Below are positions 13,553-26,048 of a stretch of 26,048 bases of DNA, piece after piece. The position numbers and the translations under genes were made by a program. Location of the stretch: positions 1 to 26,048 of the forward strand of contig CALMLK010000234.1 of assembly GCA_937868035.1 (NCBI GenBank), written 5' to 3'. Source of the DNA: an uncultured Alphaproteobacteria bacterium. GTDB taxonomy: Bacteria > Pseudomonadota > Alphaproteobacteria > Rhizobiales > Aestuariivirgaceae. The notes below the pieces were generated by a model. It saw only the letters and a program-made list of their open reading frames with translations. It had not been told where the DNA came from and ran no database searches. Numbering within the stretch: position 1 is the first letter of the stretch; each line of letters starts with the position of its first letter.

Positions 13553-13577
13553 GGAACATTCCGGAAATGTCATCGTT
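13553..13577 (+). promoter_or_regulatory. EcfG-type promoter upstream of the four-cysteine protein gene
   Basis: GGAAC (13553-13557), 16 bases, CGTT (13574-13577): exact match to the general-stress sigma consensus. It lies 75 bases upstream of the start at 13653. Confidence 0.85.
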
Positions 13578-13652
13578 CTCTCTCTGCACGCCAGATCACT
13601 GGTGTGCACCCTCATCCGCACAAGACCGTCAGCAGCGTTTAGGAGGTACATC

Positions 13653-14087
13653 ATGTGCGATTACAGCTTGGAATCCCTCGTCAGCCGCGAAGCCGAAGTC
13701 GGCGATGTTCTCGTGACCTGCAGCTTCAGCACCACAACCACGCGCGGTTTCTGCGCACCCGGAAAGCCGGAGGTGGCGGTGTGCCTGAAACCCGGCACCG
13801 AGCTTGCCTTTGAGCAGCCAGTGCAGACCTCCGGCATCTGGGGCTACGTGGAGCAGGCCTTCAGCCAGGAAGCGCGTCTTGCCCGCTTCCGCCAGGTCGA
13901 CGTCGACAAACCCGGCACGCATCACGATGCCGTGGAATTGGCGGATGGCCGCATCTTCAAGGTCAATGCGCTCCGCGAAGGCCAGCGCGCCACCGTGATC
14001 CAGCTTCCTGCCATGGAAGACGGAACACGCGAAGAGAAGCCGCACGTTCACGTCAATGAAACTGCTCGCGAGAGCGAACTGATCTGA
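13653..14087 (+). CDS. Conserved protein of unknown function, predicted EcfG regulon
   Basis: 144 residues from the ATG at 13653, preceded by a strong AGGAGG ribosome site. No signal peptide or membrane segment is seen. It starts MCDYSLESLVSR and has Cys at ~2, 23, 34 and 44. The N-terminal part is Thr-rich (SFSTTTTRGFCAPG), and the C-terminal part is charged and soluble (DGTREEKPHVHVNETARESE). I know MCDYSL-type proteins as conserved in alphaproteobacteria but know of no assigned function. An exact EcfG promoter places it in the stress regulon. The four Cys might bind a metal or act in redox chemistry; this is inference. Confidence 0.8.
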   Translation: MCDYSLESLVSREAEVGDVLVTCSFSTTTTRGFCAPGKPEVAVCLKPGTELAFEQPVQTSGIWGYVEQAFSQEARLARFRQVDVDKPGTHHDAVELADGRIFKVNALREGQRATVIQLPAMEDGTREEKPHVHVNETARESELI

Positions 14088-14103
14088 CCGTGTGATTGCT
14101 GCT

Positions 14104-14136
14104 TGCCGTCCCATCTTCACCGCGGATGGGGCGGCA
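14104..14136 (+). terminator. Stable hairpin downstream of the four-cysteine protein gene
   Basis: A 12-pair stem (TGCCGTCCCATC with GATGGGGCGGCA, one G-U pair) with a nine-base loop begins 16 bases after the stop codon. There is no T-run after it, so it may be a weak terminator or an mRNA-stabilising stem. Confidence 0.4.
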
Positions 14137-14174
14137 GGAAGCACTTGTGGGCGCAAGCGAGAGAGGGAGCCGGG

Positions 14175-14199
14175 GGAACCTTTGACCGAGCGAGGCGTT
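14175..14199 (+). promoter_or_regulatory. EcfG-type promoter of the exported PRC-barrel gene
   Basis: GGAAC (14175-14179), 16 bases, CGTT (14196-14199), an exact match 31 bases before the ATG at 14231. Confidence 0.88.
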
Positions 14200-14230
14200 T
14201 CCACACTGCACAGCGACAAGGAGATTTGCC

Positions 14231-14896
14231 ATGTCACGAACACTGTATTCCACAGCGGTGATTGCACTGCTCCTCGGAACCGGCGGCGCATTTGCGCAGA
14301 GTTCCACGACGACACAGCAGCCCGGTGCTGCCCCCGCCGTCGATTGCCCCGTGCCGGGTTCCGTTCCCGATGACCAGCTTCCGGCAAATTGCAAGCCCGG
14401 CACCACAACCGGCGCAATTCCTGCCACACCGGATGCAAACAGCTCTGCGCAGCAGCAGCCCGATCCCAATGCGACGCCTGACGTGAACACGGGATCGACG
14501 ACGCCAGCCGACAATTCCACCGCCACTGCACCGGCAGCTGGCAGCACTGATACCGCTGCTACACCGCCCGACAATGCAACTGGCGAGGCCATGGCGCCCA
14601 TGCCAGCGGGCGCTGAGTTCCTCGCGTCCCAATTCATGGGCCGCACGGTCTACACCGCGGCCAATGAGAACGTCGGCGAAATCAACGATCTCGTGATGAA
14701 CAAGGAACTCGACACCATCGTCGCCGTGATTGGCGTCGGCGGCTTCCTGGGCATCGGCGAGAAGGACGTTCTGGTGCCGATCGACCAAATCACCATTTCG
14801 AAGGATGCCTCCAACAAGCCCCTGCTCACCATTGCGTCGACCAAGGAGCAGCTGGAGGCTGCTCCCGCCTTCGACCGCACCGCTCTCGCCCGCTGA
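14231..14896 (+). CDS. Exported PRC-barrel domain protein
   Basis: 221 residues; the ATG is preceded by AAGGAG. Residues 1-22 are a Sec signal peptide ending GGAFAQ. Residues ~25-130 are a low-complexity Pro/Thr/Ser/Ala/Asn/Gln linker with two Cys (DCPVPG, NCKPG). The PRC-barrel domain covers ~135-205 (FMGRTVYTAANENVGEINDLV, VIGVGGFLGIGEKDVLVPIDQI). PRC-barrel domains are small beta folds found in RNA-processing, photosynthetic and many stress proteins; the biochemical role of such exported versions is not established. It likely acts in the periplasm or cell wall. A direct EcfG promoter precedes it and the next gene probably shares the transcript. Confidence 0.88.
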   Translation: MSRTLYSTAVIALLLGTGGAFAQSSTTTQQPGAAPAVDCPVPGSVPDDQLPANCKPGTTTGAIPATPDANSSAQQQPDPNATPDVNTGSTTPADNSTATAPAAGSTDTAATPPDNATGEAMAPMPAGAEFLASQFMGRTVYTAANENVGEINDLVMNKELDTIVAVIGVGGFLGIGEKDVLVPIDQITISKDASNKPLLTIASTKEQLEAAPAFDRTALAR

Positions 14897-14938
14897 CGGC
14901 AGCTCAGCAAACTCAACCCCCGTTAGGAGACTATAGTG

Positions 14939-15313
14939 ATGAAAACGACGCTTCTCAGTTCGGCGCTTGCGTCAGCAATCATGCTCAGCACGCCGATGAT
15001 GATCCCCATGGGCGCTGCGACCCCGGCAAAGGCCGAAGTTTCGCTTGGCGTGTTCTTCGGTGTGCCGCACTACCGCCACCGGATGGGACCCGACTACATG
15101 TATCGCCGCGGTTATGGCTGGTATCTTCCCCGCCACCACGCCCGCTTCAAGATGTCTTGTGGTGAGGCCAAGTGGTCGGTTCGCAATCGCGGCTACCGGA
15201 ACGTGTCCACGGTGGAGTGCAATGGCGCCACCTACACCTTCCGTGCGTCGCGCAACGGCCACCGCATCCTCGTCTACGTCAATGCCCGCAGTGGCGCGGT
15301 ATGGCGCGGCTGA
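14939..15313 (+). CDS. Small exported basic protein of unknown function
   Basis: 124 residues from the ATG at 14939 (a GTG one codon earlier is possible); TAGGAG lies nine bases upstream. A Sec signal peptide ends near ATPAKAEV. The mature protein is rich in Arg, His, Tyr and Gly (HYRHRMGPDYMYRRGYGWYLPRHHARF), then has a compact C-terminal part with two Cys (MSCGEAKWSV, TVECNGATYTF) ending ILVYVNARSGAVWRG, which resembles a PepSY-like ending. It lies 42 bases after the PRC-barrel gene with no promoter between, so it probably shares that EcfG-driven transcript. A strong terminator follows. Confidence 0.8.
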   Translation: MKTTLLSSALASAIMLSTPMMIPMGAATPAKAEVSLGVFFGVPHYRHRMGPDYMYRRGYGWYLPRHHARFKMSCGEAKWSVRNRGYRNVSTVECNGATYTFRASRNGHRILVYVNARSGAVWRG

Positions 15314-15334
15314 GGCCAAAGCTCACATGAACTT

Positions 15335-15374
15335 GCCCGGGTGCCGCCGCGATGCGGTGCCCGGGCTATTTTTT
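15335..15374 (+). terminator. Intrinsic terminator after the exported protein genes
   Basis: A 13-pair stem (15335-15347 with 15354-15366, including two G-U pairs), a six-base loop, then TATTTTTT. It ends the PRC-barrel / exported-protein transcript. Confidence 0.92.
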
Positions 15375-15446
15375 CTGCCGTGTGATCCTCCTGCCTTCTT
15401 CATGCGGAATGATGAACATTGAAGGACGCGCAACCCGGAAGCCGTC

Positions 15447-17522
15447 ATGCCCTCACGTGATGATGCACAGCGTTTGGAAGACGCATCGGCCTCAGCCCGA
15501 ATTGTCAGTTACTATTGCGAGTCCGCGTCAGGGCACACACTCCGTTCCCCCAACTGCACGGCCCTGCTCGGACTGCCCACCCATGGCCCCACCGAAGCGT
15601 GGTCGGCCTTGATCGATCCGGAGGACTTGCCGTATTTCGAAAATGCGCTTCATTCCACCACGCCGGCCAATCCGGACTTCGAGGTGGAATACCGCATCGC
15701 CCATGCCGCCACGCGGCGGCGGATGTGGGTGCTGGATCGTGGAACATGCGAATTCGGCCCGGACGGCCACAAACTGTCCGTGCGCGGAGCAATCGTTGAC
15801 ATCAGCGACCGGATCGGGGCCGAGATGGCCATGCGCCAGTCCGCCCAGATGAGCGCTGTGGCCTTCGAGGCTGCCCGCATGGCCACCTGGCACCTCGACA
15901 TGGCCACCAATGTGTTCACCTGTACCGACGAACTCCTGCGCCTGCTGGGCACGGACAAGGGCCAGTTTGGCGGCACGCCCCAGGCGCTCGAGAAATTCAT
16001 CCACCCCGCCGACACGGAGACCTGGCGGAGCTTCTACCGCATGGCCTTTGCCATATCGGGCCGCCATGAAGTGGAGTTCCGCGTGCTGCGCCCCAATGGC
16101 GCCGTGCGATGGATCCTCACCCGTGGCGAAATCAGCCGCCGGAGCGACGGCACCGTGCGTGAAGCCTTTGGCATCATGATGGACATCACCGAGCGCAAGT
16201 CCAGCGAGGAAGCCGCCGCGCGCCTCGCGGCCATCGTCACCCATTCGGAAGAAGCAATCCTGAGCAAGACGTTGTCAGGCATCGTGACAAGCTGGAACCG
16301 CGGTGCCGAAACCTTGTTCGGATACACGGCCGCCGAAATGATCGGCGAACCCGTGATGAAAATCGTGCCCGTCGAGAATGCCGGCGAGGAAGCGCGCATT
16401 CTCTCCACCATCAGCAGGGGCGAAACGATTGCGCCTTATGAATCCGTCCGGCTTCGCAAGGATGGTACGCGCGTGCATGTCTCGGTTGCGGTGTCTCCCA
16501 TTCGCAACGCCGCAGGCCAGGCCGTGGGTTGTTCCACCATCGCACGCGATATCACCGAGCGCCGGCGGTATACGGAGATCGTGCGGCAGAACGAAGCCCG
16601 TCTCCGTCTCGCCCTGCGCAGCGCCCGCGCCGGTGCCTGGGACATCGATCTCGTCCGCGACCACCTCCATTGGACACCGGAAATGTTCGTGATCTACGGC
16701 CATGATCCGGCGCGGGGCGTGCCTTCCCGCGAAGCCCGCGACTCGCAGATTGACCCGGCACACCGCTCGCGGGTGAAGCGTCAGTTCGACCAGGCCCTTG
16801 AAGCAGGTGGCTCCTTCGCACTGGAGTTCCCCATCACACGGCCGGACGGTTCACTGATCTGGACGTCCGTTGTTGGTGACGTGGTGAAGGACGAGAATGG
16901 ATTGGCGATCGGCGCACGGGGTATCGACCAGGACATCACGGAGCGCAAGAATTGGGAGAAGCGGCAGGCGATGCTCCTGAAGGAACTATCCCACCGGGTG
17001 AAGAACACCCTTGCCGTCATCCAGTCGATGACGCGGCAGACGCTGCGCTCCAACAGCGATCCGGAGAAATTCGTCACGGCCTTCGAAGGCCGCATCCGCA
17101 GCCTTGCCGCCTCCCACAGTCTCCTCACTGATGTTGACTGGAAGGGCGCGGGGCTGGTGGACATTCTGCGCAGCCAGCTGGAAGGCATGGTGGACAGCAT
17201 GGATGAGAGTTTCACCCTGCGTGGCCCCGACGTCACCGTGCCGGCGGGTGCAGCTACGCAGTTGGGCCTCGTGCTGCATGAGCTGGGCACCAATGCGAGC
17301 AAGTATGGTGCGCTGTCACGGCCCGGCGGCCACATCGACATCGTCTGGACGCTCTACGGCAACAAGCTGCGCCTCTCCTGGCGCGAACGGGGCGGCCCGC
17401 GCGTGACGGGAACGTCACGAGAGGAAGGATTTGGCACTTCACTTCTGCTTTCCAGTGCGGACAAGGTCACACGCCGCTTCCTCCGCAACGGATTTTCCTG
17501 CCGTCTCGAATTCATGCTGTGA
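15447..17522 (+). CDS. Soluble multi-PAS HWE-family sensor histidine kinase
   Basis: 691 residues with no membrane segment. Four PAS/PAC units can be followed by their endings: GAIVDISDR (~115), GIMMDITERK (~250), STIARDITERR (~370) and GIDQDITERK (~495). The HWE kinase domain follows: phospho-acceptor His516 in ELSHRVKN, an N-box HELGTNASKYG (His611, Asn616) and the diagnostic WRE at 645-647 (LSWRERGG). HWE/HisKA_2 kinases are the usual activators of PhyR, whose gene lies 2.8 kb away, so a role in this stress pathway is a fair inference. The start has only a weak GGAAG site. No good EcfG promoter is present upstream. A terminator begins one base after the stop. Confidence 0.92.
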   Translation: MPSRDDAQRLEDASASARIVSYYCESASGHTLRSPNCTALLGLPTHGPTEAWSALIDPEDLPYFENALHSTTPANPDFEVEYRIAHAATRRRMWVLDRGTCEFGPDGHKLSVRGAIVDISDRIGAEMAMRQSAQMSAVAFEAARMATWHLDMATNVFTCTDELLRLLGTDKGQFGGTPQALEKFIHPADTETWRSFYRMAFAISGRHEVEFRVLRPNGAVRWILTRGEISRRSDGTVREAFGIMMDITERKSSEEAAARLAAIVTHSEEAILSKTLSGIVTSWNRGAETLFGYTAAEMIGEPVMKIVPVENAGEEARILSTISRGETIAPYESVRLRKDGTRVHVSVAVSPIRNAAGQAVGCSTIARDITERRRYTEIVRQNEARLRLALRSARAGAWDIDLVRDHLHWTPEMFVIYGHDPARGVPSREARDSQIDPAHRSRVKRQFDQALEAGGSFALEFPITRPDGSLIWTSVVGDVVKDENGLAIGARGIDQDITERKNWEKRQAMLLKELSHRVKNTLAVIQSMTRQTLRSNSDPEKFVTAFEGRIRSLAASHSLLTDVDWKGAGLVDILRSQLEGMVDSMDESFTLRGPDVTVPAGAATQLGLVLHELGTNASKYGALSRPGGHIDIVWTLYGNKLRLSWRERGGPRVTGTSREEGFGTSLLLSSADKVTRRFLRNGFSCRLEFML

Positions 17523-17523
17523 T

Positions 17524-17562
17524 CCGGCTGGCGGGAACATCACCCGCACGCCGGCGTTTTTT
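17524..17562 (+). terminator. Intrinsic terminator of the HWE kinase gene, overlapping the next promoter
   Basis: A 12-position stem (17524-17535 with 17543-17554, ten pairs and two central mismatches) with a seven-base loop, followed by CG and six T. The same DNA carries the EcfG promoter of the next gene: its -35 spans the stem/loop edge and its -10 runs into the T-run. Confidence 0.7.
17534..17558 (+). promoter_or_regulatory. EcfG-type promoter of the cytoplasmic PRC-barrel gene
   Basis: GGAAC (17534-17538), 16 bases, CGTT (17555-17558), an exact match 46 bases upstream of the start at 17605. Confidence 0.87.
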
Positions 17563-17604
17563 CTCCATGGGCGCAATCCCGCGCCGCGAGAGGAGAAGAC
17601 CGAC

Positions 17605-17970
17605 ATGGCAACCGCACGACCCAATCATGCCCTTGTCTCCAGCGAAGACGTGGAAGGCACAACCGTATACGACAAGGCCGGCGAGAAGATCGGTGAAGTC
17701 GAACGGCTCATCATCGACAAGATCTCCGGCCGCGTTCACTACGCCGTCGTCAGCTTCGGCGGCTTCCTGGGGCTTGGCCACAGCCACTATCCCTTGCCAT
17801 GGGATGCGCTGTCCTACGACACGTCCCTTGAAGGCTTCCGCACCAACGTCAGTGAGCAGCAGGTGCGCGACGCGCCGGAATTCAGCGACGATTCATGGAA
17901 AGACCGCAATTGGGAGCGGAACATCCACACCCACTACCAGGTGGAACCCTACTGGGGCGCAGACATCTGA
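17605..17970 (+). CDS. Cytoplasmic PRC-barrel domain stress protein
   Basis: 121 residues from the ATG at 17605, with AGAGGAG upstream. The PRC-barrel covers ~10-85 (SSEDVEGTTVYDKAGEKIGEVERLIID, YAVVSFGGFLGLGHSHYPLPWDAL). The GGFLG(I/L)G turn is shared with the exported PRC-barrel protein at 14231. The acidic tail is Trp/Tyr-rich (SWKDRNWERN, YQVEPYWGADI). It has no signal peptide. Proteins of this form are common and often duplicated in Hyphomicrobiales general-stress regulons, but the biochemical role is unknown. It has its own EcfG promoter and terminator. Confidence 0.9.
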   Translation: MATARPNHALVSSEDVEGTTVYDKAGEKIGEVERLIIDKISGRVHYAVVSFGGFLGLGHSHYPLPWDALSYDTSLEGFRTNVSEQQVRDAPEFSDDSWKDRNWERNIHTHYQVEPYWGADI

Positions 17971-17998
17971 TCTGATCTTCCGCCACGCGCACAAACGA

Positions 17999-18035
17999 AA
18001 GAGGAGAAGCCCAATGCTTCTCCTCTTATTTGTTT
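17999..18035. terminator. Bidirectional intrinsic terminator between convergent genes
   Basis: A perfect 12-pair stem (17999-18010 with 18016-18027) with a five-base loop. ATTTGTTT follows on the plus strand and TTCGTTTG on the minus strand, so it can end both the PRC-barrel gene and the YciE-like gene. Confidence 0.9.
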
Positions 18036-18048
18036 CGTGGCTTAGAGA

Positions 18049-18540
18049 TCAGGCGGCGGCGCGCTGGTTCACCGCGTCTTCGGCAATGTCAGAAAGCTTC
18101 TGGTCAGCCGACTCTTCTTCATCGAGCGTTTCCTGCATGATGTCGGCCGCCTCGTTCCAGCCCAGCTCCTTGGCCCAGGCGATCAGGGCGCCGTAGCGGG
18201 CCATCTCGTAGTGCTCCACGGTCTGCGCCGATGAAATGATCGCGGCATCCATGGCGCGGTCATCCTTGATGTCTTCGAGGACTCCATTGGCTTCTTCCAG
18301 CAGACCCTCCAGCGCTTCGCACTTCTTGGCCTGCGGCTTGATTTCACAGGCCTCGAAGACCTGCTCGAGGCGGGCGACGTGAGTTTCCGTTTCGGCGGCG
18401 TGGCTGTTGATGGCGTCCTTGAGCTCCTGGTCCACGGCCTTCTTCTCCATGGACGGCAGCGTCTTCACCAGTTTCTTCTCGACATAGTACATGTCCTTGA
18501 GCGTTTCGGTGAACAGGTCTTCAAGCGTCTTGATGGGCAT
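18049..18540 (-). CDS. YciE/YciF-like ferritin-fold protein (DUF892)
   Basis: 163 residues from the ATG at 18540, with AGGAG upstream. The all-helical sequence fits the DUF892 four-helix bundle: TLEDLFTETLKDMYYVEKKLVKTLPSM, then SHAAETETHVARLEQVFE with the Glu/His pattern of a ferritin-like di-metal site, and a second half EHYEMARYGALIAWAKELG. Members are induced by osmotic or general stress; a metal-binding role is inferred from fold. It lies 81 bases after the DUF3008 gene on the same strand and has no EcfG motif of its own, so the two are probably one transcript. A small stem spans the stop of the DUF3008 gene (18615-18632). Confidence 0.92.
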   Translation of the reverse strand: MPIKTLEDLFTETLKDMYYVEKKLVKTLPSMEKKAVDQELKDAINSHAAETETHVARLEQVFEACEIKPQAKKCEALEGLLEEANGVLEDIKDDRAMDAAIISSAQTVEHYEMARYGALIAWAKELGWNEAADIMQETLDEEESADQKLSDIAEDAVNQRAAA

Positions 18541-18621
18541 TTTACTTCTCCTGGTGGGTTTTCAGTTGTGATGGACGGCAGGGTGGCGTGACCGCCGTGT
18601 ACGACCGGCAGGCTGCAAGGG

Positions 18622-18813
18622 TCAGTCCTTGCGATCGGCGTGTTCGGGCAGTTTCGACCGTTTCGTCTCGGCGAATTCCTCAAGTTCCTGGATCGACATG
18701 GAATCATACATTCCGCGCGAGGCACCCTTGAGTTCGCTCACCGGGGCCTCGCCCCGCTTTGCGGCGAGTGCGGCTCCGGCTGCCTTTTGCTGGGCCTTGG
18801 ATTTCGCTGGCAT
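18622..18813 (-). CDS. DUF3008 family small stress protein
   Basis: 63 residues from the ATG at 18813, which has AAGGAG nine bases upstream; the longer frame to 18864 runs into the promoter and is rejected. The protein is highly charged: a Lys/Ala-rich start (MPAKSKAQQKAAGAALAAKRG), then SELKGASRGMYDSMS and ELEEFAETKRSKLPEH, the pattern of DUF3008. Function is unknown. It has a divergent EcfG promoter (18875-18850) and probably leads a two-gene unit with the YciE-like protein. Confidence 0.85.
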   Translation of the reverse strand: MPAKSKAQQKAAGAALAAKRGEAPVSELKGASRGMYDSMSIQELEEFAETKRSKLPEHADRKD

Positions 18814-18849
18814 GACACGGTCTCCTTTCAGCTTGCAGGTCTGAGGAGA

Positions 18850-18875
18850 AACGCCGCAATTCACCGTTCCGTTCC
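18850..18875 (-). promoter_or_regulatory. EcfG-type promoter (17-base spacer) of the DUF3008-YciE unit
   Basis: On the minus strand GGAAC (18875-18871), 17 bases, CGTT (18853-18850). A second GGAAC is directly adjacent (18870-18866) but its spacing (12) is too short. Confidence 0.78.
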
Positions 18876-18885
18876 TCTCAAAACA

Positions 18886-18910
18886 GGAACCAAGTCTGCG
18901 GGCTGACGTT
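18886..18910 (+). promoter_or_regulatory. EcfG-type promoter of the 25-residue membrane peptide gene
   Basis: GGAAC (18886-18890), 16 bases, CGTT (18907-18910). It faces away from the DUF3008 promoter with only ten bases between the two -35 elements. Confidence 0.85.
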
Positions 18911-18941
18911 TTTGGCTGCGTAACAGCAAAAGGAGAAGCCC

Positions 18942-19019
18942 ATGCGCGGCGTTGTCTTGTGGTTCCTGGGAGTGCCGATTTCCGTGATCATCCTGCTCTA
19001 TCTGTTTCACGTGATCTGA
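18942..19019 (+). CDS. 25-residue single-span membrane microprotein
   Basis: ATG at 18942, TGA at 19017-19019, with AGGAG seven bases upstream. The peptide begins MRGVVLWFLGVP and continues as one hydrophobic helix ending LYLFHVI. A positively charged residue precedes the helix, so the N-terminus should face the cytoplasm. Its own exact EcfG promoter and a hairpin directly behind it argue that it is a real gene. Tiny proteins beginning MRG..LW..GVPI are, from memory, recurrent in alphaproteobacteria. Function is unknown. Confidence 0.75.
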   Translation: MRGVVLWFLGVPISVIILLYLFHVI

Positions 19020-19025
19020 AAACGA

Positions 19026-19057
19026 ATGGGGCGGCTTGCTTTCGCAGGCCGCCCCAT
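19026..19057. terminator. Hairpin terminator between convergent microprotein genes
   Basis: A ten-pair GC-rich stem (19026-19035 with 19048-19057), with a possible inner TGC/GCA extension. The minus-strand side is followed by TCGTTTTC, so it best serves the DUF3309 gene, and the plus strand gene ends seven bases before it. Confidence 0.7.
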
Positions 19058-19074
19058 CTGAAAACCGGACCGGA

Positions 19075-19233
19075 CTAGATGCGGCCGGTCAGCGCCAGGA
19101 TCACCACAATCAAAAGCAACAAACCAAGTCCGCCCGACGGGCCGTACCCCCAACCGCGGCTGTAGCCCCAGCTGGGCAATGCACCAATCACGACGAGGAT
19201 CAGGAGGATAATCAGAATTGTACCCAAGGTCAT
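19075..19233 (-). CDS. DUF3309 family small membrane protein
   Basis: 52 residues: ATG at 19233, TAG at 19077-19075, with a GGGAGAAG ribosome site. Two hydrophobic helices (TLGTILIILLILVVIGALP and GLGLLLLIVVILALTGR) flank a Trp/Tyr/Gly-rich turn (SWGYSRGWGYGPSGG), the DUF3309 pattern. Function is unknown. It lies downstream of ecfG but has its own exact EcfG promoter starting eight bases after the ecfG stop. Confidence 0.88.
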   Translation of the reverse strand: MTLGTILIILLILVVIGALPSWGYSRGWGYGPSGGLGLLLLIVVILALTGRI

Positions 19234-19263
19234 TGTCAGCTTCTCCCTGTTGACTGAATGCCT

Positions 19264-19288
19264 AACGACATCCGCCGAAAAAAGTTCC
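19264..19288 (-). promoter_or_regulatory. EcfG-type promoter of the DUF3309 gene
   Basis: Minus strand GGAAC (19288-19284), 16 bases, CGTT (19267-19264), an exact match lying between ecfG and the DUF3309 gene. Confidence 0.87.
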
Positions 19289-19295
19289 CGTGCGA

Positions 19296-19877
19296 CTACG
19301 TGTCGGACGTGTCGCTGTCGCCGCTCTTTCCCGACTGCGACATGTCGATGTCGAGGAGAGCTGCAAGGCGAACGCGGGCACGGTTGACGCGGCTCTTGAC
19401 AGTGCCGACCGCGACCTGCGTGATCTCGGCCACTTCCTGGTAGGAGAAGCCTGAGGCACCGACGAGGATGATGGCCTCGCGCTGGTCATCCGGAAGTTGC
19501 TGCATGGCGACGCGCAAGTCCGCCACATCGAGGTGGGACTCCTGGTTTGCCGGGGATGCCAGCTGATTGACCAGCTCACCATCCACGTCCTCAACTTCGC
19601 GCTTCCGCTTTTTTTTGCGAAGCTGGCTGAAGTATTCGTTACGCAGGATTGTGAAAAGCCAAGCCTTCATATTGGTGCCGGGCTGGAAATCGTTCTGGTG
19701 ATTCCACGCCTTCATCAGCGTTTCCTGGACGAGGTCGTCGGCGTAATCCGATTTCGCCGATAGAGACAGGGCAAAGGCCCGCAGACGCGGAACCACAGAG
19801 AGCATCTGCTTCTGGAATTCGTTCTGCACCTCATCAGTGGCAGGCGGGTTTGCGGTCTTCAAAACCGGAACTGTCAA
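19296..19877 (-). CDS. ecfG: General stress response sigma factor EcfG (ECF family)
   Basis: 193 residues. Region sigma-2 covers ~28-95 (YADDLVQETLMKAWNH, MKAWLFTILRNEYFSQLRKKKRK) and sigma-4 covers ~117-172 (LPDDQREAIILVGASGFSYQEVAEI, VGTVKSRVNRARVRL). A Ser/Asp-rich tail follows. EcfG directs RNA polymerase to GGAAC-N16/17-CGTT promoters, of which this window holds eight exact copies. The start is a TTG at 19877, chosen because GGAGG lies seven bases upstream and no ATG occurs before residue 25, where sigma-2 begins. nepR lies just upstream with a two-base gap, the usual anti-sigma/sigma arrangement. Confidence 0.95.
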   Translation of the reverse strand: MTVPVLKTANPPATDEVQNEFQKQMLSVVPRLRAFALSLSAKSDYADDLVQETLMKAWNHQNDFQPGTNMKAWLFTILRNEYFSQLRKKKRKREVEDVDGELVNQLASPANQESHLDVADLRVAMQQLPDDQREAIILVGASGFSYQEVAEITQVAVGTVKSRVNRARVRLAALLDIDMSQSGKSGDSDTSDT

Positions 19878-19879
19878 TG

Positions 19880-20092
19880 TCAGTCCTCCGTTCCCGGTGG
19901 GCGCTTCTTGTCAAGCTGCTTCAACAGGTCGATGAACCTGTCCGGAACGGGTTGATTGGCGACATCCTCGTAATAGTCCTTCAAACGCCGTCCGATCAGA
20001 TTGAAAATCTTGGAATTGGGAGGAGATTGGGTTGCCGGTTTCAATTGCGGTTTTTTCCTGTTTTTAGGATCGTCGTCCTCGCGAGTCGTCAT
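19880..20092 (-). CDS. nepR: Anti-sigma factor NepR
   Basis: 70 residues from the ATG at 20092; the longer open frame to 20164 is not family-like. A charged, disordered start (MTTREDDDPKNRKK) precedes the conserved core IGRRLKDYYEDVANQPVPDRFIDLLKQLD, the two-helix NepR signature that binds EcfG and, competitively, the sigma-like domain of PhyR~P. It is the first gene of the nepR-ecfG unit, divergent from phyR. A GGGG stretch about six bases before the ATG may serve as ribosome site. Confidence 0.95.
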   Translation of the reverse strand: MTTREDDDPKNRKKPQLKPATQSPPNSKIFNLIGRRLKDYYEDVANQPVPDRFIDLLKQLDKKRPPGTED

Positions 20093-20177
20093 GGAAAACC
20101 CCAGCTTCGTCCGGCTCACAGCCGACGTTTTTTCTTGGAACCGTACCGCATTTAAGCCGATCACAGCGTTTCATAAG

Positions 20178-20203
20178 AATGCCCGGGGGTGCCCCGGGGT
20201 TCC
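20178..20203 (-). promoter_or_regulatory. Candidate weak EcfG-type promoter of nepR-ecfG
   Basis: Minus strand GGAAC (20203-20199), 17 bases, CATT (20181-20178): one mismatch from consensus. It lies 85 bases upstream of the nepR start. The spacer is the 17-base inverted repeat region. Confidence 0.45.
20182..20198. repeat. GC-rich inverted repeat between nepR and phyR
   Basis: CCCGGGG (20182-20188), three bases, CCCCGGG (20192-20198): a perfect seven-base inverted repeat. It fills exactly the spacer of the candidate nepR promoter. An A-run lies at about 20211-20218 on the plus strand. Confidence 0.7.
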
Positions 20204-20229
20204 ACGGTCAAAAAAAATTCTGTCAGACC

Positions 20230-20254
20230 GGAACCCGAACGCAGGAGTTGCGTT
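20230..20254 (+). promoter_or_regulatory. EcfG-type promoter of phyR
   Basis: GGAAC (20230-20234), 16 bases, CGTT (20251-20254), an exact match 41 bases before the phyR start, implying positive feedback. Confidence 0.88.
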
Positions 20255-20295
20255 TTAGACCCACGCCATGTGTCATGGCTGCAGAGGGAGGTCGC

Positions 20296-21096
20296 ATGGG
20301 TCTGTCTACACAGGTGGCAATGTATTTGCCGCAACTTCGCAGGTTTTCCAGAGCCTTAACGGGCAGCCAGCAATCCGGGGATGCCTACGTCGCAGCCGTC
20401 TTGGAGGCGCTGATAGCCGAGCCCACAGCCTTGAATCCGGAGTCCAACATTCGCGTGGAACTCTACCGGATCTTCTGCAAGTGGTGGGAATCGATTTCCC
20501 TCAACCTTCAGTCGGCCCCTGCGGGTTCGGAACCGAGCTGGATCGCCGCGGCGCAAAAGCGCCTCTCCGGCATGCCGCCCCTGGCGCGCGAGGCCTTCCT
20601 GTTGATGACCGTTGAAGGCTTCTCGGTCGACGAGATATCCACAGTGCTCGGCCGCACTGTTCCCGATGTGCAGACACTCATCGAGGAAGCATCGAGCGCC
20701 ATCGTCGAACAGGTCGCCACCAATGTCATGATCATCGAAGACGAACCGATCATTGCCATGGACCTCCGTGAAATCCTGGAGAGTCTGGGCCACGCCGTGA
20801 CAGGTGTGGCACGCACGCGCCGTCAGGCCGTGGAGCTTGCTGCACAGAAGAAGCCCGGCCTCATCCTTGCCGACATCCAGTTGGCGGATGGAAGCTCCGG
20901 CATCGATGCTGCGAACCAGATCCTGGCGGACTTCGAAGTGCCGATCATCTTCATCACGGCGTTCCCCGAACGCCTGCTGACAGGCGAGCGGCCCGAGCCC
21001 GCGTTCCTCATCACCAAACCATTCACGCCAGACATGGTGAAGGCTGTGGTGAGCCAGGCCCTGTTCTTTGAAACCAAGGCGCGCGCGGCGGCCTGA
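20296..21096 (+). CDS. phyR: PhyR anti-anti-sigma response regulator
   Basis: 266 residues from the ATG at 20296, preceded by GGGAGG; an ATG at 20275 is less well placed. Residues ~1-130 form the sigma-like domain: sigma-2-like (QVAMYLPQLRRFSRALTGS) and sigma-4-like (LPPLAREAFLLMTVEGFSVDEISTVLGRTV-type). The receiver covers ~140-260 with acidic pocket MIIEDEP, phospho-acceptor Asp193 in LADIQLADGSSG, ITAFPE and the TKPF lysine motif. When phosphorylated, PhyR exposes its sigma-like domain to NepR and frees EcfG. It is divergent from nepR-ecfG, the classic layout in this class. A GC-rich stem surrounds the stop codon (about 21088-21103) without a T-run. Confidence 0.96.
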   Translation: MGLSTQVAMYLPQLRRFSRALTGSQQSGDAYVAAVLEALIAEPTALNPESNIRVELYRIFCKWWESISLNLQSAPAGSEPSWIAAAQKRLSGMPPLAREAFLLMTVEGFSVDEISTVLGRTVPDVQTLIEEASSAIVEQVATNVMIIEDEPIIAMDLREILESLGHAVTGVARTRRQAVELAAQKKPGLILADIQLADGSSGIDAANQILADFEVPIIFITAFPERLLTGERPEPAFLITKPFTPDMVKAVVSQALFFETKARAAA

Positions 21097-21109
21097 GCCG
21101 CCCCGCCGG

Positions 21110-21134
21110 GGAACTTTTCTGCACCCTCCGCGTT
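21110..21134 (+). promoter_or_regulatory. EcfG-type promoter of the small hydrophobic protein / CsbD unit
   Basis: GGAAC (21110-21114), 16 bases, CGTT (21131-21134), an exact match 19 bases before the ATG at 21154 and only 13 bases after the phyR stop. Confidence 0.86.
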
Positions 21135-21153: not shown

Positions 21154-21315
21154 ATGGTCAGATTTTGCACATTGTCCGCGGTGGCTGCGACAACCCTGTT
21201 GCTGGCAGCCACTGGCCTTGCGGGCGCTTTTGCCAGCGTTGCAATGCTCGCAGGCGCAGTCACGCTCTTCGGCGTGGCCGTGGCGCTCTGCAATTCAGGT
21301 CTCAGCGAAAGCTGA
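21154..21315 (+). CDS. 53-residue hydrophobic (membrane or exported) protein
   Basis: ATG at 21154 with AGGAGG five bases upstream; TGA at 21313-21315. It begins MVRFCTLSAVAATTLLLAATG and is rich in Ala, Leu, Val and Gly almost to its end (NSGLSES). It could be one long or two short membrane helices, or a signal peptide with a very short product. No family recognised. The close EcfG promoter and ribosome site support it as a gene. It is followed after 52 bases by the csbD-like gene, probably on the same transcript. Confidence 0.65.
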   Translation: MVRFCTLSAVAATTLLLAATGLAGAFASVAMLAGAVTLFGVAVALCNSGLSES

Positions 21316-21367: not shown

Positions 21368-21565
21368 ATGAACTGGGATCGCATTGAAGGCAATTGGAAG
21401 GAATTCAAGGGCAAGGTCAAGCAGCAGTGGGGCAAGCTCACTGATGACGACCTGACCACGATCGACGGCAATCGCGATGAGCTCGAAGGGCTCCTCCAGC
21501 AGCACTACGGCTATGCACGCGACAAGGTGCAAAGCGACGTGGACAACTGGCTGACCCGCATGTGA
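21368..21565 (+). CDS. CsbD family stress protein
   Basis: 65 residues from the ATG at 21368 with AGGAAGG upstream. The sequence is typical of CsbD: MNWDRIEGNWKEFKGKVKQQWGKLTDDD, then DGNRDELEGLLQQHYGYARDKV and a final DVDNWLTRM. It is small, charged and helical, without signal peptide. The family is a common member of general stress regulons (first described as a sigma-B-dependent protein in Bacillus); molecular function is unknown. No separate EcfG motif lies in front of it. A strong terminator follows. Confidence 0.95.
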   Translation: MNWDRIEGNWKEFKGKVKQQWGKLTDDDLTTIDGNRDELEGLLQQHYGYARDKVQSDVDNWLTRM

Positions 21566-21590: not shown

Positions 21591-21619
21591 GGCGGAACCG
21601 CAAGGTTCCGCCTTTTTTT
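21591..21619 (+). terminator. Intrinsic terminator after the CsbD gene
   Basis: A perfect nine-pair stem (GGCGGAACC with GGTTCCGCC), GCAA loop, then seven T. It closes the stress island and separates it from the convergent glucan synthase gene. Confidence 0.95.
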
Positions 21620-21650: not shown

Positions 21651-24600
21651 CTACAGCGACGGAAGTTCGACCTCTCGCACGCGCTCGTCTTGCGGAAATG
21701 AGATACGCCACTGGGTATCGTTTAATTTCTGAAGGCCGTCGATCGCCCCAGGCTCCGCTGCGCCGCGCACGACCGTGATCTGCAGACGCGCCTTGCCTCG
21801 CCGTACCGTCACACGCGTGCGGTCCCAGCCCGTGGGGAGGCGCGGAGACACCCGAACAGAATCTCCATCCCAAGTGAGGCCGAGCACCGCTTCGATGCCA
21901 GCGCGATAAAGCCAGGCAGCCGCACCCGTGTACCACGTCCACCCCCCGCGGCCGACGTGCGGTGCAACGGAATAGATATCGGCCACCATCACATAGGGCT
22001 CAACCTTATAACGCGCCGCCTCTTCGGCCGTGCGCGCATGATTGACGGGATTGAGCTGGTTGAACAGCGCCGCGGCCTCATCCACTTCCCCCATCTGCAT
22101 CAGTGCGAACACCGACCAGATTGCACCATGGCTGTACTGGCCACCGTTCTCGCGCAAACCCGGCGGATAGGCACGGATGTAGCCAGGATCAGGTTGCGAT
22201 GAATCAAACGGCGGCGTGAACAGCAGCGCCAGGCCATCCTCGGGCCGTATCAGTTGCTTGCGCACCTCCGCCATGGCGGATGCCGCACGATCGGGTGCTG
22301 CCGTTCCCGCCAGCACCGACCATGACTGTGCGATGGCATCGATACGGCACTCGTCGCTCTCCTTGGATCCAAGCGGCGTACCGTCATCAAAATATCCACG
22401 CCGGTACCACGCCCCGTCCCAGGCGTGTTTCTCCACGGCTGTGGTCAAGGATTTGATCGCGTCCCTCCAGCGCGTGACGCGCGCCGTATCGCCGCGGCGT
22501 TCGCTTTCCGGCAGGATTGTCTTCAGTGTGGCAATGAGGAACCAGGCCAGCCACGTGCTCTCGCCCTTTCCCTTTTCGCCGACGCGATTGAGCCCGTCAT
22601 TCCAGTCGCCGCCGCCAATCAGCGGCAAGCCGTGCGGCCCGCGCGTGAGGCCATGTTCCAGCCCGATGCAGCAATGTTCATACAGCGACGCCATCCGGTC
22701 CGACACGTGCGGCGGGAAATATGCATCATGCTCCGCCGGCTCCAACATACGCCCTTCCAGGAACGGCAGCATCTCATCGAGGATGGTCGCGTCGTTGGTG
22801 ACATTGACGTAGTGCATCGTACAGTATGTCAGCCAGGCCACATCATCGCTGATGCGCGTGCGTGTGCCCGCACCGGTTTCCGGCAGCCACCAATGCTGCA
22901 CGTCCCCCTCCGGGAACTGCCGCGATCCGGCCCGCAGTATGTGGGCACGCGCGATTTCCGGGCGTGAAATGCACACGGCCATCGAATCCTGCAATTGATC
23001 CCGGAAGCCATAGGCACCACTGGCCTGATAGGTGCCTGAGCGCCCGAGCATGCGGCACGCCAATGCCTGATACATCAGCCAACCATTGAGCATCACGTTC
23101 ATCGCACCATCGGGGGTTTCAACCTGAACGGCGGAGAGGGTATCGTCCCAGAAGGTGCGAACCTCCTTCAACAGCGCCTCGACATCCGCGCCACGGTATT
23201 TCCGGACCAGCGCGCGCAGGCCTTCCACGCTCGGCGATGCCCCGATCAGTACGATCACCTCGGCAGGTGCGGAGGCGGACACCGTGATCACCTGCTGCAG
23301 GGCCGCACACGGATCGAGTCCGGCGCCGAAACCGCCGGAGAGCTCCGCTCCCGACGTCACCTCGGCAGGAGCGGCGGGCGTGCCATAGGCGCCGAGGAAA
23401 GCATGCCTGTCGCCCGTCATGCTGGTCTGCCTGCCGGCAAGATCGAAGAACACGGCCTGGTCGCCGAATTCCGGAGTCCAGGGATTGCGCACCATGAGTG
23501 CGCCAGTCTCGGCATCCACCGTTGTCTGGATATGGAAAGCGGTCGCTCCGCGCGAAGCCCCCAACACAAGCTCGGCGAAGAACGTCACCGACAAGGTTTG
23601 TGGCGATGGTGATGTGGAACGGAGCCGCAAGCGGCTCACCTTCACCGCCCCATGCACCGGCACGAGATGAGTCAGTTCCATCCCCAGCGCGCCGTGCTGC
23701 GATTCATGCACGGTGTATCCAAAGCCGTGGCGCGTGCGGAATGTCGCGTTCGCCTGCTTCAGCGGCGCACTGCAGGGACTCATGAGTTGTCCGCTGCGCA
23801 CATCCCGCACGTAGAAGATTTCCGACGGCGGATTGGCAACAGGATCATTGGCCCACGGCGTGATCTGCCGTTCGCGTGCGTTGGCGCACCACGTATAACC
23901 ACCGCCATCCGCCGCGGCATGCGTGCCGAATTCACCATTGGCAATGACGTTGATCCACGGCGCGGGCAATGGCTTCGCCAGGTCATGCGGAATGACATAC
24001 TCCCGCCCATCGGCACTGAACCCGCCCCATCCATTGAAGAACTGCAGATCGGGAGCCGCAACAGCGAGACGCGCCGGCTTCAGGTAGGCGGGGTCGCCGG
24101 CAGGGAGACGCTCCGGCACGCGAGCCGGAAGCTGCATGCGCGAGACCTGACGCGACAAGGCCCCGGCCCGGGCATGCAAAGTGACGCGCGCCACCGCAGG
24201 CAACAGGGCCACTGTCTCGGCTGGCAAGAGATCGGCCCGCAAGGCGAACACTTGCCCGCTGCCCTCTGTCGTGCCCATCGCCGTCTGGGATTTGCGGACC
24301 AGTTCCTCGATCGCCGCTTGCAGGTCCTGCATGTAGGAAGCGCGCCGTTCATTGAGAATGACAAGATCGACAGCAAAGCGCTTGGCGGACCAGTAGCCAT
24401 GGCCACGCAGCAACTGCCGGATGATGTCCAGGTCTTCCACCGCATCAATCCGGATCAGGATGATCGGCCGCACGCCGGAAACGCCCGACGCCCACAGCCG
24501 CGTCTGTTCGCGCGCCTGCTGCTGCAACGCGGTGGATGACGGCCGTGCGGCTGCCGATGCATAGACGATCAGGTTGGCCAGGCGGCGGAAGACCTCCGCC

Positions 24601-26048
24601 TCACTCCCTTCCACCGCAAAATGGCGGAGTTGCACGCGCGCATGCGTCCAGGCGAGGACGCTGGCCCGCTCGTAGGCGGCGCGCTGCCGGTGACTGTCCA
24701 CAAGATCAAGAACGCCTTCGCGGCTCTCGGCTACCACGGTCCACACGCTCCAGCACGCCTGCTGGCCTGCCGCGACACGCAGGCGCTGGCGGAGCGCAAA
24801 CACGGGATCAAGAACGGCGCCCGTCGCACCGTCCAGCGTCTTGCCGGGTGTGAAGGCCTGCGCCGCGGTCAGCGTATTGCCCGGGCCGAGGAATTGCGCG
24901 CGCGATGTCTCAAACTCAATCGCGCTGGCGCCGTCGCTGTAGGGCACAAGGAATTGCGCAACCCACACACTGGGGTCCGAGTCCTCCCGCCGCCGCCGCA
25001 TGGCGAGAACGGCGCCCAATTCCGGTACGAATTCCGTGACGACAAAGAGTTTCGAAAACGCCGGATGCGCCGCATCCGCCGCAGGCGGCGCCAAGGCCAG
25101 CTCCATGTAGCTGGTGATTTCAATGATCTGCGAACGCGAAGAGTTATTCACCACATTGACACGGCGAACTTCTGCATCGCTCTCGTTCGAAACGACGCAA
25201 TGCAGCGTGGTGGTGAACGGCCCATCCACCCGCCTGAGGGCAACCTTGTCTTCGGAGAACTCCGCCCCGTAGTCCTCGGGCTCGCGGACACGGGGGCTGT
25301 AACCCGCCGACCAGCGCTTGCCGCCCCGCATTTCGCGCAGGAAAATAAAATGGCCCCACGGATCGCAGACCGGATCCTCGCGCCAGCGGCTGATGGCGAT
25401 GCCGCGCCACGAAAGCGAGCCGCTGCCGGTCGCGGTGATCATGGTTGTGAGTTGCCCGTTGGACAGCAACTGCACATCCGGATTGCCTGTCCGCCGCGGA
25501 TCGACAGCGCGCGGCGCCGCGGCCTCGGCCTCGCTCTGCATGTCCGGCGGTGCGGTGGCAATGCCGGCAAGTGGCACGGGCACTTCCTCCGGCGCACGCT
25601 CCTGCAGCAGCAACTCCGCCGCACGCACGATGTTTTCCTCATGGAAGCTGTTGCGGATGCGGTGACCCATGACCGTATTCAGGATGGCGGTAATCGTCAT
25701 CCCCTGGTGATGGGCGAAATAGGCCTTCACCACCACATGGGTATCGCCTTCGGGCAGGCGCGCAGGTGTATAGTCAACGGACTCGTAGAAGCCGTAACTG
25801 CCGCGTGCGCCGGCCCCATGCAATGTGCGCAGGTTGGCGGCGGCCTCCTGTGGCGCGAACATGGAGGCGAGAGCCGTTGCATAAGGTGCCACCACGACAT
25901 TGGCGGCAAGGCCCCGCTTCAACCCCAGACCCGGCACGCCAAAGTTTGAGTACTGGTATGTCAGATTGCGGTCGCGCGCGCTGAAGGCCGATTCCGATAT
26001 GCCCCACGGCACGCCGAGCTTCTTGCCGTATGCAATCTGCTGCTGCAC
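21651..26048 (-). CDS. ndvB: Cyclic beta-1,2-glucan synthase (NdvB/Cgs type), C-terminal part
   Basis: The visible 1,465 residues reach the right edge without a start; whole family members have roughly 2,800 residues, so the membrane glycosyltransferase half lies outside. Domains seen: the end of a glycoamylase-type domain (GVPWGISESAFSARD, HHQGMTITAILN, ~1-130); a first GH94-type beta-sandwich (NPDVQLLSNGQLTTMIT, SLSWRGIAISRWR, from ~190); a second (FFNGWGGFSADGREYVI, NVIANGEFGTHAA, from ~680); and the helical GH94 barrel (GAYGFRDQLQDSMA, GGGDWNDGLNRVG with DWND at 1148-1151, GWTWYTGAAAWLYRAG). In Cgs/NdvB the C-terminal phosphorylase-like region controls chain length. The product is a periplasmic glucan linked to osmotic adaptation and host interaction. 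A similar GH94 protein of other specificity is possible. Confidence 0.93.
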   Translation of the reverse strand: MQQQIAYGKKLGVPWGISESAFSARDRNLTYQYSNFGVPGLGLKRGLAANVVVAPYATALASMFAPQEAAANLRTLHGAGARGSYGFYESVDYTPARLPEGDTHVVVKAYFAHHQGMTITAILNTVMGHRIRNSFHEENIVRAAELLLQERAPEEVPVPLAGIATAPPDMQSEAEAAAPRAVDPRRTGNPDVQLLSNGQLTTMITATGSGSLSWRGIAISRWREDPVCDPWGHFIFLREMRGGKRWSAGYSPRVREPEDYGAEFSEDKVALRRVDGPFTTTLHCVVSNESDAEVRRVNVVNNSSRSQIIEITSYMELALAPPAADAAHPAFSKLFVVTEFVPELGAVLAMRRRREDSDPSVWVAQFLVPYSDGASAIEFETSRAQFLGPGNTLTAAQAFTPGKTLDGATGAVLDPVFALRQRLRVAAGQQACWSVWTVVAESREGVLDLVDSHRQRAAYERASVLAWTHARVQLRHFAVEGSEAEVFRRLANLIVYASAAARPSSTALQQQAREQTRLWASGVSGVRPIILIRIDAVEDLDIIRQLLRGHGYWSAKRFAVDLVILNERRASYMQDLQAAIEELVRKSQTAMGTTEGSGQVFALRADLLPAETVALLPAVARVTLHARAGALSRQVSRMQLPARVPERLPAGDPAYLKPARLAVAAPDLQFFNGWGGFSADGREYVIPHDLAKPLPAPWINVIANGEFGTHAAADGGGYTWCANARERQITPWANDPVANPPSEIFYVRDVRSGQLMSPCSAPLKQANATFRTRHGFGYTVHESQHGALGMELTHLVPVHGAVKVSRLRLRSTSPSPQTLSVTFFAELVLGASRGATAFHIQTTVDAETGALMVRNPWTPEFGDQAVFFDLAGRQTSMTGDRHAFLGAYGTPAAPAEVTSGAELSGGFGAGLDPCAALQQVITVSASAPAEVIVLIGASPSVEGLRALVRKYRGADVEALLKEVRTFWDDTLSAVQVETPDGAMNVMLNGWLMYQALACRMLGRSGTYQASGAYGFRDQLQDSMAVCISRPEIARAHILRAGSRQFPEGDVQHWWLPETGAGTRTRISDDVAWLTYCTMHYVNVTNDATILDEMLPFLEGRMLEPAEHDAYFPPHVSDRMASLYEHCCIGLEHGLTRGPHGLPLIGGGDWNDGLNRVGEKGKGESTWLAWFLIATLKTILPESERRGDTARVTRWRDAIKSLTTAVEKHAWDGAWYRRGYFDDGTPLGSKESDECRIDAIAQSWSVLAGTAAPDRAASAMAEVRKQLIRPEDGLALLFTPPFDSSQPDPGYIRAYPPGLRENGGQYSHGAIWSVFALMQMGEVDEAAALFNQLNPVNHARTAEEAARYKVEPYVMVADIYSVAPHVGRGGWTWYTGAAAWLYRAGIEAVLGLTWDGDSVRVSPRLPTGWDRTRVTVRRGKARLQITVVRGAAEPGAIDGLQKLNDTQWRISFPQDERVREVELPSL

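Follow-up and report, generated by a model that had tools for sequence, protein, structure and literature searches.

A dense cluster of EcfG-type promoters and candidate stress genes around phyR in an uncultured member of the Aestuariivirgaceae

Genes and promoters of the phyR locus

The stretch analysed here, contig CALMLK010000234.1 of an uncultured alphaproteobacterium of the family Aestuariivirgaceae (26,048 nucleotides, hereafter the window), is one entire contig of a genome assembly (G000) of 2.64 Mb in 474 contigs that is 79% complete. It carries the genes for PhyR, NepR and EcfG, the core of the alphaproteobacterial general stress response, and around them a cluster of matches to the EcfG-type promoter motif GGAAC-N16/17-CGTT, which was searched on both strands and is called an exact site below.

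The response regulator and anti-anti-sigma factor PhyR (20296-21096, plus strand) has the sigma-like and receiver domains (PF22029, PF22233, PF00072) and scores 358.6 bits against NF006623, for which the cut-off is 240. Divergent from it, on the minus strand, lie the gene for the anti-sigma factor NepR (19880-20092; PF18557, 56.0 bits with a cut-off of 25.7) and, adjoining it downstream, a gene for a sigma factor with Sigma70 r2 and r4_2 domains (19296-19877), which we assign to the EcfG class from these general domains and the nepR neighbourhood. EcfG-type promoters precede both units: phyR has an exact N16 site (20230-20254, plus), and nepR-ecfG has the variant GGAAC-N17-CATT (20178-20203, minus), 111 bases before the start. 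The 17-base spacer of this variant (20182-20198) consists of a perfect inverted repeat, seven G+C pairs around a loop of three bases; on reading, the nepR promoter spacers of two relatives, G032 and G024, have no such repeat. The arrangement of nepR-ecfG divergent from phyR, with both units EcfG-dependent, is the usual one according to PMC8103513 and PMC4814048.

The first likely transcription unit is the gene for a 144-aa protein starting MCDYSL (13653-14087, plus), which has no Pfam or NCBIfam family and stands behind an N16 site (13553-13577, plus); it has 6496 homologues at E <= 1e-3, and among the 120 homologues listed five bear the name of an organism, Aestuariivirga in all five, from which we assign the genome to that genus or its vicinity. 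There follow, behind an N16 site (14175-14199, plus), a PRC-barrel protein of 221 aa (14231-14896, plus; PF05239) and a 124-aa protein of no family (14939-15313, plus), which has no exact site of its own and is probably cotranscribed with it. Beyond a terminator-like hairpin of 13 pairs and a T run (15335-15366, plus) lies the gene for a PAS-HWE histidine kinase (15447-17522, plus; PF08447, PF07536), a candidate PhyR kinase that probably forms a unit by itself and has no EcfG site. It reaches 20.0 bits against the PhyK equivalog, for which the cut-off is 750; since it is of the HWE type, it may still act on PhyR.

A second PRC-barrel protein (121 aa, 17605-17970, plus; profile match) is encoded alone behind an N16 site (17534-17558, plus). 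It converges, across a hairpin that is terminator-like on both strands (17999-18027), with a minus-strand unit in which a DUF3008 gene (18622-18813; profile match) is probably the first and a DUF892 gene (18049-18540; PF05974) the second, the DUF892 protein presumably being ferritin-like. The N17 site of this unit (18850-18875, minus) is divergent from an N16 site (18886-18910, plus) before a gene for a 25-aa membrane-like peptide of no family (18942-19019, plus), similar peptides being found in six other loci. A DUF3309 protein of 52 aa (19075-19233, minus; profile match) has its own N16 site (19264-19288, minus). To the right of phyR, an N16 site (21110-21134, plus) precedes a likely unit of a 53-aa protein of no family (21154-21315, plus) and a CsbD-like protein (21368-21565, plus; PF05532), after which comes a terminator-like hairpin (21591-21612, plus).

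The left flank holds the genes for a polysaccharide deacetylase (PDA) and a malic enzyme-phosphotransacetylase (MaeB), the right flank a gene (21651-26048) that we take to be ndvB. The window has 14 terminator-like sites versus 8.5 in shuffles, so the weak ones mean little; an Rfam search of the window gave no match, and of sigma-70-type promoters one was seen in it versus 2.1 expected.

Number and density of the sites

A first-pass annotation, made from the letters of the window, had listed eight exact sites, every one with the correct coordinate, strand and spacer length by our motif search, but it had overlooked a ninth exact match at 19867 (plus). The 19-75 bases that it gave between site and start codon hold if phyR starts at 20296, the distances from the end of CGTT being, in coordinate order, 75, 31, 46, 36, 31, 30, 41 and 19 bases. 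Its statement that almost every gene of the interval is covered, phyR included, stands for phyR and has to be qualified in two respects, as the HWE kinase has no site and that of nepR-ecfG is the CATT variant.

Obviously, one may ask whether these are simply chance matches in GC-rich DNA. In 100 dinucleotide shuffles of the window the mean number of exact matches was 0.26, and none of the shuffles reached the nine observed. Allowing spacers of N15-18 adds one match, at 14022 inside the 144-aa gene, while one mismatch anywhere (N16) yields 12 matches in the window versus 5.7 expected, a number reached by 2 of the 100 shuffles; this is barely above the shuffles, so that degenerate sites have to be judged by their conservation and not from the window alone. 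The genome-wide scan that the first-pass annotation had proposed as a check gave 48 matches, nine on this contig and 39 elsewhere, with at most two on any other contig of the genome. At the outside density 0.11 matches would be expected per 7.6 kb, and the Poisson probability of eight or more is 6e-13, for a stretch chosen post hoc. The reversed motif has 91 matches genome-wide versus the 48 of the motif, and hence the motif as such is not over-represented in the genome. Both this and the 39 matches elsewhere, 29 of which are called inside reading frames, are what one would cite in favor of chance; yet the shuffles and, for the eight sites, the orthologous placement despite changed spacers described below make that explanation of them hardly credible.

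Conservation of the sites in relatives

For the comparison we used the phyR loci of relatives (34 loci, L084-L117) and a survey of 61 genomes, 37 of the same genus (this one included) and 24 of other families of the order, in which PhyR was counted as present when a near full-length match had E <= 1e-80, and the sigma factor at E <= 1e-30. The nearest relative carrying the locus is G032, whose PhyR is 75% identical. It has an exact site at a similar distance before all seven testable genes, and the spacers differ in length in four of the seven and agree at 26 of 48 bases in the other three; the 25-aa gene was not found in its locus. G032 is also the only relative's locus with the 144-aa gene, and the site stands there at -102 versus -100 here. 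The sites before the other genes are kept as well: that of PRC-221 in G032 (as N17) and G016, that of PRC-121 as an exact site in G032, G024, G016 and G029 (four more distant PRC matches have no exact site upstream), that of DUF3008-DUF892 as N16 in G032 and G024, and that of the 53-aa gene and csbD as N17 in the same two. Before the 25-aa gene the site is exact in G023, G013 and G014, CATT in G029 and missing in G037 and L070, and before DUF3309 seven of 12 other loci have an exact site, four a one-mismatch site and one none.

Upstream of phyR, 24 of the 34 relatives' loci have an exact site, seven have one with one mismatch and three have none. In the 29 of these loci with nepR, the region upstream of that gene holds 11 exact sites, 13 CATT, one AGTT and one TGTT, and three have none; G033, G022 (second locus) and G012 show the reverse of the window, with CGTT at nepR and CATT at phyR. 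More generally, one of the two divergent promoters in the nepR/phyR intergenic regions is often CATT, not CGTT. In vitro work in Sphingopyxis granuli found a given promoter to be transcribed less with CATT or TGTT as its -10 box (PMC7083833). As nepR-ecfG carries CATT here, phyR would, by analogy and with some reserve, be expected to have the stronger of the two promoters and to be the more strongly induced; other promoter features count as well (PMC7083833).

The ninth match, GGAAC-N17-CGTT at 19867-19892 (plus), differs from the others in that it spans the nepR/ecfG junction, antisense to both genes, and no counterpart was found in the 34 relatives' loci at 300-700 bases before phyR on the plus strand. 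From this position and the missing counterparts we judge it incidental, chance being the preferred reading for this match only, and because of the missing counterparts we also reject a role in antisense control of nepR.

Genes of the flanks served as controls, and no CGTT, CATT or TGTT site was found upstream of them in 38 rows for MaeB, six for PDA and 10 for NdvB, although some of these 54 rows overlap and MaeB paralogues are among them. The csbD gene offers a second control. Inside phyR loci, 15 of 16 csbD rows have an exact site and the remaining one TGTT; of the 20 csbD genes that PhyR genomes carry away from phyR, 10 show an exact site, two CATT or TGTT and eight none; and in genomes without PhyR an EcfG site was found in none of five. 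Thus, promoterless csbD genes are more frequent without PhyR, yet they are not confined to such genomes. Congeners with PhyR have 16.8 sites per Mb (n=22) versus 11.9 in those without (n=15), with p=3e-4 in a rank test that ignores kinship and composition.

For a motif of this kind one may also consider use by another extracytoplasmic function (ECF) sigma factor of similar specificity, since the AAC core is common to ECF promoters (PMC7083833) and specificity cannot be read from sequence alone. We regard this as very unlikely, because the csbD site is missing in all five cases where PhyR was not found and because the consensus is that of EcfG in both Rhizobium etli (PMC3892343) and S. granuli (PMC7083833). 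The sites are very probably EcfG promoters, as first proposed, and their density here far exceeds that in the rest of the genome.

Clustering around phyR and sites elsewhere in the genome

The first-pass annotation had contrasted the window, as a single island of core and effectors, with a general stress response usually described as a core locus with a scattered regulon. The island of 14 genes is supported; the contrast is not. All 33 genomes with PhyR show enrichment of exact sites around phyR (about 8- to 70-fold, median 20) when core promoters are included, which is partly built in, since phyR and nepR themselves carry sites. When sites in the 450 bases before phyR are left out, further exact sites remain in 32 of the 33 genomes, with a median enrichment of 17-fold, at P<1e-3 in 20 and at P<0.05 in 28; G040 is left with none, and P<0.05 is missed in G046, G026, G020 and G008. 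These counts refer to one locus per genome and to stretches of 4.5 to 26 kb, often ended by a contig edge, and the densities to rounded genome sizes.

The densest 7.6 kb hold nine sites in this genome and in G032, six in five others and one to five in the remaining 26, so that these two are the densest of the 33 loci. In a survey of named genomes, 14 of 23 loci (L061-L074) had a PhyR-like match over most of the protein, the partial matches (L075-L083) being excluded; L061 is identical in length, sites and matches to the contig of G024 (L085) and therefore does not enter the counts. The densest 7.6 kb of the other 13 named loci hold eight sites in Maritalea porphyrae (L062) and zero in two. M. 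porphyrae, G032, G016, G048 and G037 resemble the window in having six to nine exact sites in their densest 7.6 kb and PRC-, HWE-kinase-like and csbD matches near phyR, and differ from it in gene order and effector set; most of the window's gene order is shared only by G032 and, as far as its 4.5-kb contig reaches, by G024. Given the further sites near phyR in 32 genomes, together with M. porphyrae, we reject the idea that the island is unique. Clustering near phyR is widespread but differs in degree, and the present locus stands at the dense end of this continuum.

By crude gene calling, 10 of the 39 matches outside the window are in free positions and the other 29 fall within reading frames; two of the latter nevertheless lie ahead of likely genes, for a ferritin-like protein (35 bases) and a CMAS protein (55 bases). 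Ten of the 15 candidate downstream proteins were scanned against Pfam: seven are above the cut-off, a pyridoxamine-oxidase-like protein is just below it and two have no match. The seven comprise PMSR (msrA, 34 bases), an AI-2E transporter (53 bases), Ferritin, CMAS, DUF305, a glycosyltransferase-like protein and 3-dmu-9_3-mt. As a rough estimate, about 12 promoter-positioned exact sites lie outside, versus eight in the island, and a scattered EcfG set, with the msrA, ferritin-like and CMAS genes, probably exists alongside it.

These data bear on a further explanation, namely that the locus is a self-contained regulon cassette special to this lineage, with almost nothing elsewhere. That 7.6 kb contain nine exact sites both in this genome and in G032, more than in any other of the 33 loci, would fit it, as would the fact that eight of about 20 promoter-positioned exact sites fall within 0.3% of the genome. 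Nevertheless, we consider it improbable, given the further sites near phyR in 32 of 33 genomes even without the core, the eight sites in M. porphyrae and the Pfam matches behind outside sites in seven of the 10 proteins scanned.

A probable enlarged core locus of the general stress response

It is highly probable that the island represents the alphaproteobacterial core locus of the general stress response, to which neighbouring effectors have been added, and that EcfG drives it. This reading builds on gene identities, sites, their conservation and the lack of sites at csbD where the system was not found. The enrichment around phyR is weaker without the core promoters than with them, and csbD sites are less regular away from phyR; the enlarged core locus rests on neither of these counts. 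Like the core loci of R. etli and S. granuli, it has the same three proteins with nepR-ecfG divergent from phyR, the signal GGAAC-N16/17-CGTT and, by sequence, autoregulation; it differs from their published descriptions in having seven more EcfG-type promoters and about ten effector genes within 7.6 kb, and in the CATT of nepR-ecfG.

Following the known mechanism, from which we take phosphorylation, partner switch, transcription starts and promoter strengths, stress would lead a histidine kinase, perhaps the HWE kinase of the island, to phosphorylate PhyR, which would then remove NepR from EcfG. RNA polymerase with EcfG would fire nine EcfG-type promoters in the island, eight with CGTT and that of nepR-ecfG with CATT, and so switch on together the DUF892, DUF3008, DUF3309 and CsbD proteins, two PRC-barrel proteins and four unnamed small proteins, along with the scattered set elsewhere in the genome.

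Several points weigh against this interpretation. Ten of the 34 relatives' phyR upstream regions have no exact site, and neither have eight of the 20 csbD genes away from phyR any site. No EcfG site precedes the kinase gene, and that the kinase acts on PhyR is a guess. For the 144-aa gene the comparison comes down to a single relative, for DUF3008 and for the 53-aa gene to two, and since the genome is 79% complete it is uncertain how much of the regulon lies in the island. Finally, according to PMC7083833, some promoters with other -10 boxes were transcribed more than others with CGTT, so that the order of strength between two different promoters is uncertain.

In PMC6599016 the EcfG motif is described as occurring throughout the genome, yet accumulating upstream of EcfG-regulated genes. 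The titles and abstract openings covered, with subscription literature mostly outside, report neither a promoter island around phyR nor that a genus has lost the system several times. That does not prove novelty, and the locus is a dense, extreme example of an already known system.

Presence and absence of the system among relatives

Near full-length PhyR was found in 33 of the 61 genomes, 22 of the 37 of the genus (this one included) and 11 of the 24 of other families. All but one of the 33 also have NepR, whereas the 28 others have none; the exception is G026, where phyR lies 311 bases from a contig end. A matching sigma factor is likewise present in 32 of the 33, the best match being 52-80% identical to that of the window in the 31 other genomes; a match in G002, 41% identical and with an internal stop, was not counted. 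Second copies of ecfG occur in three congeners (G001:C6, G017:C26 and G029:C98), each adjoined by DUF3309 and 69-71% identical to the window's ecfG, closer than the copies beside their own phyR.

PhyR, NepR and their sigma factor were not found in 15 of the 37 congeners, seven of which are at least 95% complete; the absence is doubtful in G009 (66% complete) and in G007, where the contig begins inside PDA at the maeB locus, just where the island would follow, and may therefore reflect an assembly gap. In G025 the maeB locus has PDA-maeB with no island in the 13.7 kb beyond PDA. In a search for an empty island site, ndvB gave no match in 11 of 14 PhyR-less congeners and a match in three; it is present in all five PhyR genomes searched, which were chosen because it lies beside phyR, so that this contrast is biased.

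The effectors follow PhyR to different degrees, CsbD being found in 33 of 33 genomes with PhyR versus five of 28 without, DUF892 in 28 versus none, and DUF3309 in 23 versus three. On a tree of the rpoB domain (a single gene, midpoint-rooted; 48 genomes, as 12 of the 61, this one included, had no rpoB match at the threshold used and G009 yielded a short fragment that was excluded), PhyR presence changes at least eight times on well-supported branches. In eight independent pairs, DUF892 was concordant in 7.2 on average and never opposite (median p 0.016), and CsbD in 6.2 (median p 0.031); when only PhyR-less genomes at least 95% complete are used, seven pairs are left, with 6.3 for DUF892 (p 0.031) and 5.0 for CsbD (p 0.06). 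DUF3309 was rejected as a co-lost effector, its pairs not being significant (median p 0.125; rpoB tree of 43 of 49 rows). The tree joins G005, a 100% complete genome, to G010 and G026 with full support, and G005 gave no match to PhyR, NepR, CsbD, DUF892 or DUF3309. In PhyR-less G002:C33, G006:C340 and G028:C32, CsbD lies about 0.2 to 1.1 kb from a weak DUF3309 match, with NdvB 1.2 kb from the pair in G006 and 4.6 kb in G002. No exact EcfG site was found before these three csbD genes.

We infer that the changes in PhyR are losses rather than gains. Tentatively, and with the odds somewhat against it, the general stress response of the genus may be seen as a dispensable module, whose switch, promoters and effectors were repeatedly lost together, leaving some effectors without EcfG promoters. 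If this is true, the clustering of effectors around phyR would be a cause or a consequence of such an all-or-none fate.

For this little-studied group, the island supplies a set of probable direct EcfG targets, the four unnamed small proteins included. Close congeners with and without the stress switch represent natural knock-outs, in which effectors and their promoters can be traced, and their comparison makes it approachable by sequence to ask which of the effectors need EcfG entirely.

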